This document shows, piece after piece, positions 44,531 through 50,393 of a stretch of 64,000 bases of DNA. The stretch's first letter is position 1. Each line of letters begins with the position of its first letter. The translations under genes were made by a program, and so were the position numbers. The notes below the pieces were generated by a model. It was not told where the DNA came from. It saw nothing but the letters and a program-made list of their open reading frames with translations, and ran no database searches. The DNA lies in assembly GCF_000473105.1 (NCBI RefSeq), contig NZ_KI421498.1, positions 992,001 through 1,056,000 of the forward strand, given 5' to 3'. This DNA is from Phaeobacter inhibens DSM 16374 (GTDB lineage Bacteria; Pseudomonadota; Alphaproteobacteria; Rhodobacterales; Rhodobacteraceae).

Positions 44531-44890
44531 TTAGACCATCGGCTGCATCAACTCCACCTCTTCGCCATCGCGAATGGCGGTGTAGAAACAACTGCGTCGG
44601 TTGGTGTGACAGGCAGGACCGCTCTGTCGCACCACCGCCAGAAGGCAATCGCGGTCGCAATCCACCCGCAGATCCACCAGCGCCTGCACATGGCCGGAGC
44701 TTTCCCCCTTGACCCAGAATGCCTGACGGGACCGTGACCAATAGGTGACTCTGCCGCTCTCCAGTGTTTTCATCACCGCATCAGCATTCATCCAGGCCAT
44801 CATCAGGACCTCACCGCTGTCTTCCTCCTGCGCAATGCAGGGGATCAGACCGGCCTCATTATACTTTAGGCTAAGAGGATCAAAGGACAT
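44531..44890 (-). CDS. hisI: Phosphoribosyl-AMP cyclohydrolase
   Basis: 119-residue histidine-biosynthesis enzyme (third step). VLMMAWMNADAVMKTLESGRVTYWSRSRQAFWVKGESSGH and the zinc/magnesium region DCDRDCLLAVVRQSGPACHTNRRSCF are typical. HisE is not fused, the usual alphaproteobacterial state. ATG at 44890 begins MSFDPLS; an ATG at 44908 is also in frame and has an AAGG upstream. Confidence 0.95.
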   Translation of the reverse strand: MSFDPLSLKYNEAGLIPCIAQEEDSGEVLMMAWMNADAVMKTLESGRVTYWSRSRQAFWVKGESSGHVQALVDLRVDCDRDCLLAVVRQSGPACHTNRRSCFYTAIRDGEEVELMQPMV

Positions 44891-44967
44891 GGCAAAAACC
44901 TTTTGCATCTGGGAACTGGCCCCCTATGTATTGGGAACAGCGCATAAGGGAAAGCCCGAGGTACCCC

Positions 44968-45420
44968 ATGTCCGGCGAGACCGATCTGATAAAACTCTAC
45001 TCCTCACGGATCCTGGCGCTGGCCGCCGATATTCCCCATCTGGACCGGCTCGACACCCCGGATGTGACGGTGAAAAAACGCTCTCCCCTCTGTGGCTCGA
45101 CGGTGACGGTGGATCTGCAGATCAAGGAGGGCGCAATCGCCGCCTTTGGTCAGGACGTGAAAGCCTGCGCGCTGGGTCAGGCCTCCGCCGCTGTTGTCGG
45201 TGAGGTCATCCTTGGCCGCACCCTGCCTGAGATCGCGCAGGCCCGCCAGCAGCTGAAGGCAATGCTGACCGAGGATGGGCCAGTTCCCGATGCCCCCTTT
45301 GACGGGTTTGAGGTCCTGATCCCGGCGCGGGAATTCAAGAACCGCCACGCCTCGATCCTGTTGGCATTGGATGCCACCTACGAGGCGATGCAGACCCATC
45401 AGGAACAGACCTGCGCCTGA
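44968..45420 (+). CDS. NifU-like iron-sulfur scaffold protein missing the third cluster Cys
   Basis: 150 residues related to the NifU/IscU N-terminal domain. Cys42 (SPLCGSTV) and Cys67 (VKACALGQASA) match the first two cluster cysteines. At the third, where IscU has H-C-S, this protein reads RHAS (Ala128), so it cannot bind a cluster in the usual way. Such proteins are annotated as iron-sulfur scaffold homologues in Rhodobacteraceae; the true role is uncertain. ATG at 44968 is preferred over 44926. It ends in Cys-Ala. Confidence 0.8.
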   Translation: MSGETDLIKLYSSRILALAADIPHLDRLDTPDVTVKKRSPLCGSTVTVDLQIKEGAIAAFGQDVKACALGQASAAVVGEVILGRTLPEIAQARQQLKAMLTEDGPVPDAPFDGFEVLIPAREFKNRHASILLALDATYEAMQTHQEQTCA

Positions 45421-45516: not shown

Positions 45517-45550
45517 AAAAAACCGCCGCACACCCAAGGGGTGGCGGCGG
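45517..45550 (-). terminator. Terminator for the small membrane-protein transcript
   Basis: On the minus strand an imperfect stem of CCGCCGC and GCGGCGG (with inner ACCC/GGGT pairs) is followed by six T. It lies 160 bases behind the stop of the small gene, leaving a long 3' untranslated part. Confidence 0.7.
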
Positions 45551-45710
45551 CAGTATGCTCTCTTATGCGGGACCCGAACGGGACCTGTTGACCTGAGGCA
45601 GGTCGGCCAGACCGGCAGGCAAACCGGGCAGGCTTGGGACAGGCGGCCCCGTCCGGCATAAAGAGTGCGATCAGGAAATCTGAAATCTTACGGCTGGCAG
45701 CGTCGCGGCC

Positions 45711-45833
45711 CTACAGCAGCCCGGGCAGGTGCAATCCCGCCACCAGCATCACAACCAGAGCCGCCGCGCCAATGGCGTCTTGCAGCAGTGTCGATTGGGC
45801 ATTCTGAACAGTCGTCTTGATTTGGGTCATCAT
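45711..45833 (-). CDS. 40-residue predicted membrane peptide behind LexA-type boxes
   Basis: A short frame with a perfect AGGAGG 7 bases before ATG 45833. The peptide has a polar N-terminal half (MMTQIKTTVQNAQSTLLQD) and a hydrophobic C-terminal helix (AIGAAALVVMLVAG) followed by LHLPGLL. Tandem GTTC repeats with LexA spacing lie 71-106 bases upstream. No family is recognised. The size, single helix and SOS-type promoter resemble Caulobacter SidA and E. coli TisB, small SOS-induced membrane peptides, but there is no sequence match I can claim. It lies between nifU-like and recG with no other gene in its transcript. Confidence 0.65.
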   Translation of the reverse strand: MMTQIKTTVQNAQSTLLQDAIGAAALVVMLVAGLHLPGLL

Positions 45834-45903
45834 GGTACGTCCTCCTGTCTGTCTTGCTATCGCTCTCTGGCGTCTTGTTGCCTATTTGTTCTCATATTCA
45901 GTG

Positions 45904-45939
45904 GAACCTGTAAAGAACTTTATGAGAACATTTGCGAAC
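45904..45939 (-). promoter_or_regulatory. Tandem LexA-type operator (GTTC repeats)
   Basis: Plus-strand GAAC occurs at 45904, 45915, 45926 and 45936. The first three are spaced so that GAAC-N7-GAAC occurs twice in a row; the fourth is one base closer (N6). Read on the minus strand this is GTTC-N7-GTTC, the known LexA box of Rhodobacter and other alphaproteobacteria. The only gene downstream in the right direction is the 40-residue peptide. Confidence 0.75.

Positions 45940-46023: not shown

Positions 46024-50393
<4,370 letters not shown>

Follow-up and report, generated by a model that had tools for sequence, protein, structure and literature searches.

SOS-induced membrane peptides and small RNAs carried by 3' untranslated regions are both known kinds of bacterial gene product. 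SidA of Caulobacter is reported as an SOS-induced division inhibitor of 29 residues that binds FtsW (PMC4211646, in the sections available), and the LexA box in that organism is given as GTTC-N7-GTTC (PMC12700426, likewise in the accessible part). The Klebsiella RNA DinR is described, in the accessible text of its report, as the 3' end of the LexA-controlled dinI mRNA and as a repressor of ftsZ (PMC10907235), and at the CcaF1-CcsR locus of Rhodobacter sphaeroides the 3'UTR of a small protein gene is described as yielding small RNAs (PMC8625941, accessible text).

We describe here a locus next to recG in a 64,000-nucleotide stretch of the Phaeobacter inhibens DSM 16374 genome (the window) at which the two kinds may be joined on one transcript. 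Our overall reading, that this is a LexA-repressed SOS gene encoding a division-delaying membrane peptide and carrying a small RNA in its 3'UTR, stands in our estimate at about an even chance, and its parts differ in strength as set out below. Within the accessible text of the open-licence literature we found no account of a membrane peptide under LexA control that is conserved throughout a family and linked to a covarying RNA, and no SOS division inhibitor assigned to the Rhodobacteraceae. recG does not appear in the accessible part of a Dinoroseobacter LexA paper (PMC6473078) and is named only in a reference in that of a survey of 104 RNAs (PMC2864571); a further survey, whose genomes include one of the Rhodobacterales (PMC8632094), presents different motifs in the main text seen, and its supplement may list the RNA. 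A conserved peptide under putative LexA control would be a direct candidate for the SOS division inhibitor of a family to which numerous marine bacteria and the Rhodobacter models belong. As a covarying element without a match in Rfam 15, the RNA stands as a separate result, and if one SOS transcript does carry both the peptide and the structured RNA, it would tie LexA to both membrane-level and RNA-level control.

Table 1. Features of the peptide locus, in positions of the window; operators and promoter are predictions.
Feature	Position	Strand	Basis
40-residue membrane peptide CDS	45711..45833	-	family conservation; AlphaFold2 helix
Shine-Dalgarno AGGAGG	45841..45846	-	sequence; an SD-like word precedes the start in 79/90 relatives
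Proximal LexA operator, GAAC-N7-CAAC	45877..45891	-	spans inferred -10/start; 16.2 bits, LexA matrix
Promoter (inferred): TTTACA 45914-45909, 17 nt, GAACAA 45891-45886	45886..45914	-	sequence
Distal LexA operator, half-sites GTTC-N6-GTTC-N7-GTTC	45915..45939	-	18.8 bits, LexA matrix
Fourth GTTC, non-conserved	45904..45907	-	present in 2/90 loci
Structured 3'UTR RNA: closing stem, inner hairpin, CUGYC motifs	45551..45676	-	models R1 and R2, covariation
Intrinsic terminator and U run	45517..45551	-	stem 45522-45551, -25.7 kcal/mol, z -3.48; U run extends to 45517
recG, upstream neighbour, same strand	46024..48114	-	open reading frame

A conserved short gene beside recG

The 40-residue frame is a real gene. 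Used as a query it matches 169 of 198 family genomes (E up to 1), and 90 of these peptide loci were read in detail (L001-L090, with L001 the window). The frame, its AGGAGG, four upstream GAAC words and a terminator with a T-run, as pointed out in an initial annotation of the window, all lie where that annotation had placed them. The adjoining gene we take, as did that annotation, to be recG; its homologue is directly upstream on the same strand in 88 of the 90 loci and absent from the stretch read at the other two (L051 and L074). In 83 of the 90 the frame ends exactly 40 codons past the position aligned to the window start. A profile of 63 of the peptides (A1, from which those with starts mis-set beside an ATG, plus some others, were left out by hand) is invariant at M1, D19, G22, L34 and P37 across its aligned members, and at E up to 0.001 matches 343 of 394 family genomes (304 of the 347 good genomes among them); A1 does not find the peptide in the remaining 51. 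Against 385 class genomes, 28 have a match at E up to 0.1. The full-length matches all belong to the five family genomes in this set (E no higher than 7e-15), with none found outside the family; the other 23 reach 18.3 bits at most (E no better than 0.0047), and all but one of them sit inside frames of 237 residues or more.

Changes relative to the nearest relative are mostly silent (pS 0.29, pN 0.012), and the median pN/pS is 0.53 over 3160 pairs of the 80 genes, out of 90, taken into the codon test, a value obtained with synonymous sites near saturation. Searches of the peptide gave no match in Pfam, two chance-level matches of one member each in NCBIfam (E 0.055 and 0.071) and three weak matches in PHROGs, the best of which (E 0.0029, in two of the 63 members) is to an entry of unknown function; on these results placement in a known protein family was rejected, and no homologue of known function was found.

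The single hydrophobic helix noted in the initial annotation agrees with the AlphaFold2 model, which predicts one helix over residues 2-39 (mean pLDDT 82.5, pTM 0.44). Residues 1-18 average 2.5 K/R and 1.35 D/E and the C-terminus is almost uncharged, a distribution that suggests an N-in topology; the same 18 residues are amphipathic, relative to shuffles, in 62 of 63 members (hydropathy and hydrophobic-moment scales). The model and these profiles predict that the peptide very probably sits in the inner membrane with its N-terminus inside.

Two genes, at 44926-45420 and 44531-44908, face the peptide gene in the window, and the same neighbours occur in many relatives; the convergent gene facing it is presumably IscU/NifU-like and the other facing gene hisI-like. 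The possibility that the 3'UTR contains another coding frame was judged from the ORF list, and rejected. The promoter scan gave no match to the sigma-70 consensus, and a consensus sigma-70 promoter for the peptide gene was rejected on that result. The terminator at 45522-45551 was missed by a simple scan, though folding supports it.

Operators and probable SOS control

GAAC words occur at 45904, 45915, 45926 and 45936 with spacings of N7, N7 and N6, so that two overlapping GAAC-N7-GAAC units can be read. Taken alone, such boxes are weak evidence: three are present in the window versus 1.55 expected, a number reached by 22 of 100 shuffles, and GTTC-N7-GTTC occurs 89 times genome-wide versus 92 for the reversed control; the box alone was rejected as evidence. 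It is significant because it is conserved across homologous promoters. GTTC-N7-GTTC lies within 160 bases of the start in 89 of the 90, and GTTC words are spaced by N6 in 80, with all other spacings from N3 to N15 in zero to three and the reversed word at N7 in none. The conserved distal unit is GTTC-N6-GTTC-N7-GTTC, present in 80 of the 90 loci; GAAC-N7-CAAC is present in 79 and both boxes in register in 81, compared with zero and zero for the reversed patterns, and the third GTTC is 23 nt from the GAAC in 80 of 89 loci. The initial annotation had read tandem LexA-type boxes of two consecutive N7 units. The other unit, within the distal repeats, is conserved, but the second N7 unit (45904-45918) is found in two of the 90 loci, the window and one other, and is a local chance occurrence; the tandem N7-N7 design was rejected accordingly, and the proximal GAAC-N7-CAAC box had been overlooked. 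That annotation had also said that a lack of conservation, in related species, of either the peptide or the GTTC spacing would speak against it, and both are conserved. L060 (G157:C118) is the sole locus of the 90 without boxes; its frame reaches 75 residues and a match to the RNA is still present.

We also scored the loci with a LexA matrix made from 77 sites of recA, lexA and uvrA in 26 family genomes, none of them from the peptide gene. GAAC-N7-GAAC or GTTC-N7-GTTC lies upstream of recA in 26, of lexA in 26 and of uvrA in 25 of the 26 genomes. Run on both strands of the 90 peptide loci, the matrix places its top-scoring position in the peptide promoter in 89. The distal and proximal operators of the window lie 39 bases apart, and the proximal box scores up to 23.7 among the peptide loci; the training sites score from 13.3 upward (median 24.2), and about one in 100,000 of 369,178 background windows reaches 11.9. 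At 17 further loci the two best matches fall in the promoter in all 17, 39 bases apart in 16, and recG is upstream on the same strand in all 17, about 620 bases off in L220. The promoter thus carries boxes like the recA, lexA and uvrA sites, as a member of the LexA regulon would. With peptide and operators conserved together and an independent matrix choosing this promoter, the LexA-type control suggested initially is strongly supported from the sequences.

The operators have features of their own. The first distal half is GAACT in 88 of 89 loci, versus GAACA in 51 of 52 recA and lexA promoters; uvrA boxes are freer, and one of them, GTTCACATAAAGTTC, resembles that of the window. The composite GTTC-N7-GTTCTTTAC is found in 272 of 394 genomes, 13 of which were counted with two or three copies. 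Of three genomes looked at that have the composite without a profile match, two have diverged peptides under it (L227 and L228), with recG seen beside L228 only, and the third (L226) has none.

Several related arrangements were seen elsewhere. At L226 (G054:C34), a double LexA-like operator like that of the peptide lies at about 997-1060, but the 2 kb read there shows neither recG nor a recognisable peptide. In the lexA promoters (L129-L154) the known pair is followed, again after N6, by a third half-site, which is exact in four of 26 promoters and has one mismatch at most in 20. Many recA promoters (L103-L128) have a second word further upstream, GTTC-N7-GATC (a loose pattern matches in 15 of 26, at least one of these matches being elsewhere), which is a LexA activation site in Rhodobacter; LexA of Rhodobacter sphaeroides reportedly acts as both activator and repressor of recA (Tapias and others, 2002). 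The distal repeats of the peptide gene lie upstream of the inferred -35, a placement that would also suit an activator.

A structured RNA in the 3'UTR

Behind the frame lies a conserved RNA domain of its own, in the 3'UTR, and covariation leaves us all but certain of its fold. A terminator-like site lies within 400 nt of the stop codon in 86 of the 90 loci (median distance 171 nt), and CTGYC occurs 334 times in 77 3'UTRs, whereas 100 dinucleotide shuffles average 64 occurrences and never exceed 78. The first alignment of the 77 3'UTRs was discarded, its consensus fold holding the terminator only. Twelve similar sequences were then picked from 54 trimmed cores and aligned with plain MAFFT (A2), which is a chosen subset because the stem emerged after that selection. 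The A2 consensus has a long closing stem and an inner hairpin, with 91% of cells paired versus 87% when shuffled, 11 cells with a double change versus 3.2 (none of 500 shuffles reaches 11) and five pairs with a double change versus 2.2 (seven of 500 reach five); slid controls pair at 47% at most. Further pair types number 11 versus 14.5 in shuffles, so this measure is not raised.

A covariance model of the 12 A2 sequences (R1), in whose training the window had no part, matches 58 of 96 other peptide loci (E up to 0.01) and finds the window at E 6.6e-4, its sole match at E<=1 in that genome. In 43 scripted R1 matches the element starts from 1 nt before to 67 nt after the stop codon, L060 being the exception. 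In a fitted alignment of 58 distinct sequences, where the fit to the model favours structure, double changes occur in 20 of 20 pairs versus 13.8 in shuffles and in 179 cells versus 36, and the covariation score is 0.476 versus 0.10 at most when slid. A second model (R2), trained with the window, which it scores at 60.9 bits, matches 19 of the 38 remaining loci at E up to 0.05, bringing the RNA to 89 of 108 loci, including the 12 that built R1; neither model finds it in the other 19. The matches are also specific, the best in 800 kb of two genomes reaching 20.2 bits (E 1.3). Under stricter filters five of 367 class genomes match, and these are exactly the five family genomes, each with the match beside the peptide; two genomes matched in the class search, G224 and G453, belong to no RNA model. 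R1 was also run on 16 genomes, of which seven contribute a locus to it; the best match is at the peptide locus in all 16, with three extra weak matches at E 0.3-0.6. No Rfam 15 family reaches its gathering score in the window, and under relaxed settings each search returned a single match, far below threshold.

In the predicted folds most CUGYC motifs are unpaired (0.68 versus 0.42 overall); 25 of 59 matches contain four of them, within a range of two to seven. A conserved RNA domain thus follows a frame under putative LexA control and ends in an intrinsic terminator, an arrangement like that of DinR. The initial annotation had suggested that the 3' part could carry a regulatory RNA: a structured, covarying RNA is present, and it may act as a small RNA through its repeated exposed CUGYC motifs, a proposition that we consider evenly balanced.

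ftsZ is the only target gene that was fetched (26 genomes, L248-L273), and the motif set used was fixed from the RNA motif analysis, but after the ftsZ leaders had been viewed. ACAGGCGGACAG occurs in 10 of the 26 leaders, and ACAGGCGG and ACAGGCGGACAG complement CUGUCC and GCCUGU of the RNA. All 26 leaders contain at least one 6-mer complementary to the eight commonest 6-mers of the RNA, 12 hold at least 12 nt, and the total complementary cover is 241 versus 30 (maximum 68) in shuffles. One such 6-mer is present at 44 of 358 other gene starts in G073 and 34 of 337 in the window's own genome, 12 nt at five and none, and one 6-mer at 10 of 26 recA and six of 24 lexA starts (24 of the 26 lexA starts were taken in, and for G072 at least the position of the ftsZ start is uncertain). 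The leader element counts as a single feature passed on by descent and not as 26 separate events. By accessible helix energy, computed from stacking energies, ftsZ ranks only 120th of 358 in G073 and 67th of 337 in the own genome. The RNA gives -39.7 kcal/mol with its own ftsZ, -39.0 with those of other species and -35.6 when shuffled, which is no own-species preference, and whole-length duplex energies were set aside as uninformative. The own genome's leader is without the GGACAG half. The motif complementarity speaks for direct action of the RNA on ftsZ, the helix-energy rank and the lack of species specificity against it; such action is suggestive at most and seems unlikely. The ftsZ leaders have ACAGGCGG conserved just 5' of the start codon (22 of 26), within an unusual-looking ribosome-binding region.

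Proposed function and comparison with known systems

In the mechanism that we propose, LexA at two operators around the promoter would hold the gene off, and DNA damage with LexA cleavage would switch it on; judged from the operators, repression by LexA and release on damage are highly probable. The transcript would comprise a leader of about 46 nt from a putative start site, the 123 nt frame and a 3' part of about 190 nt. The peptide, inserted in the inner membrane with its N-terminus inside, would most likely bind a membrane partner, the septal synthase for example, and thereby delay division much as SidA or YneA does, and to this analogy we give slightly less than an even chance. The analogy takes in DidA beside SidA (PMC4211646) as well as YneA (PMC13396833), and suggests a brake on the late division machinery. 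The initial annotation had proposed that the gene may stop division or act on the membrane, which is plausible in view of such precedents and of the single predicted helix. The 3'UTR domain would act as a small RNA through its exposed CUGYC motifs. An extended version, a two-armed SOS checkpoint in which the peptide blocks the septal machinery and the RNA shuts off translation of ftsZ and of other mRNAs with AGGCAG or GGACAG leaders, is improbable in our judgement, but if true would make the transcript a dual-function SOS RNA that dates back to the origin of the family.

The main alternative to a division brake is a DinQ-like effect on membrane energy, the damage-induced peptide lowering the membrane potential and slowing growth, as would TisB or DinQ, with no binding to the division machinery. 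The predicted peptide, a single helix of similar size under putative SOS control and with an amphipathic first half, would suit such a role. Toxin genes are typically patchy in distribution, whereas this gene is single-copy, syntenic and present in most genera of the family. DinQ is reported to depolarise the membrane, although type I toxins pair with an antisense RNA (both from the accessible text of PMC3567139), and here the inferred leader is short, at about 46 nt, and an unsystematic search noticed no antisense gene; on balance we regard a membrane-energy effect as unlikely. The proposal that the RNA is the main product, with the peptide a minor passenger or merely setting RNA release, draws on the strong covariation, the motif enrichment (334 versus 64) and the precedent of DinR from the dinI 3' end (PMC10907235, accessible text), but the peptide is found in more loci than the RNA (108, all chosen by the peptide, versus 89), its length is nearly fixed, and its changes relative to the nearest relative are mostly silent (pS 0.29, pN 0.012), which together make this fairly improbable.

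The 3'UTR fold could also serve purely in cis, either protecting the mRNA or governing how the frame ahead of it is translated. It starts at the stop codon or just past it and, in the matches seen, never away from the peptide, as such an element would, but a multi-stem fold with repeated unpaired CUGYC (0.68 versus 0.42) exceeds the needs of stability, and pairing with the leader, judged by eye, failed to hold across species; we consider a purely cis role somewhat unlikely. As to control, LexA might be replaced by another regulator, for example an activator on the GTTC direct repeats, which have a 10-11 base period and precede the inferred -35. The GAACT reading of one half and the wide occurrence of the composite (272 of 394 genomes, 13 with more than one copy) would fit a separate protein, but a matrix from recA, lexA and uvrA only puts this promoter first in 89 of 90 loci and the proximal box reaches 23.7, near the true-site median of 24.2, and we hold replacement of LexA to be very unlikely.

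The reading that we prefer, a LexA-repressed membrane peptide that may delay division, most resembles SidA, in that both would be very small, single-helix inner-membrane peptides under LexA, a likeness that rests on prediction and comparison. SidA, compared here by description, has 29 residues and the present peptide 40, and a structured 3'UTR is present here whereas none is mentioned for SidA in the accessible sections (PMC4211646). YneA, SosA and ChiZ are likewise described as damage-induced single-pass membrane proteins acting late in division, but YneA and ChiZ bear an outside LysM domain (PMC13396833, accessible text), whereas the peptide here stops at the membrane. DinQ and TisB, SOS-induced small single-helix membrane peptides, resemble the predicted product here, but each is described as part of a type I toxin-antitoxin locus that includes an antisense RNA (PMC3567139, accessible text). 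The RNA is like DinR in coming from the 3' end of an mRNA under putative LexA control; the accessible text presents DinR as Klebsiella-specific, processed and Hfq-dependent (PMC10907235), whereas here the fold is family-wide and the frame encodes a membrane peptide. CcaF1-CcsR offers, within the same bacterial family, a small protein gene with an RNA-bearing 3'UTR, but CcsR is described as four RNAs from the mRNA of a small RNA-binding protein, induced by oxidative stress (PMC8625941, accessible text), and its motif and regulation, so far as that text gives them, are unlike those of the RNA of the peptide gene.
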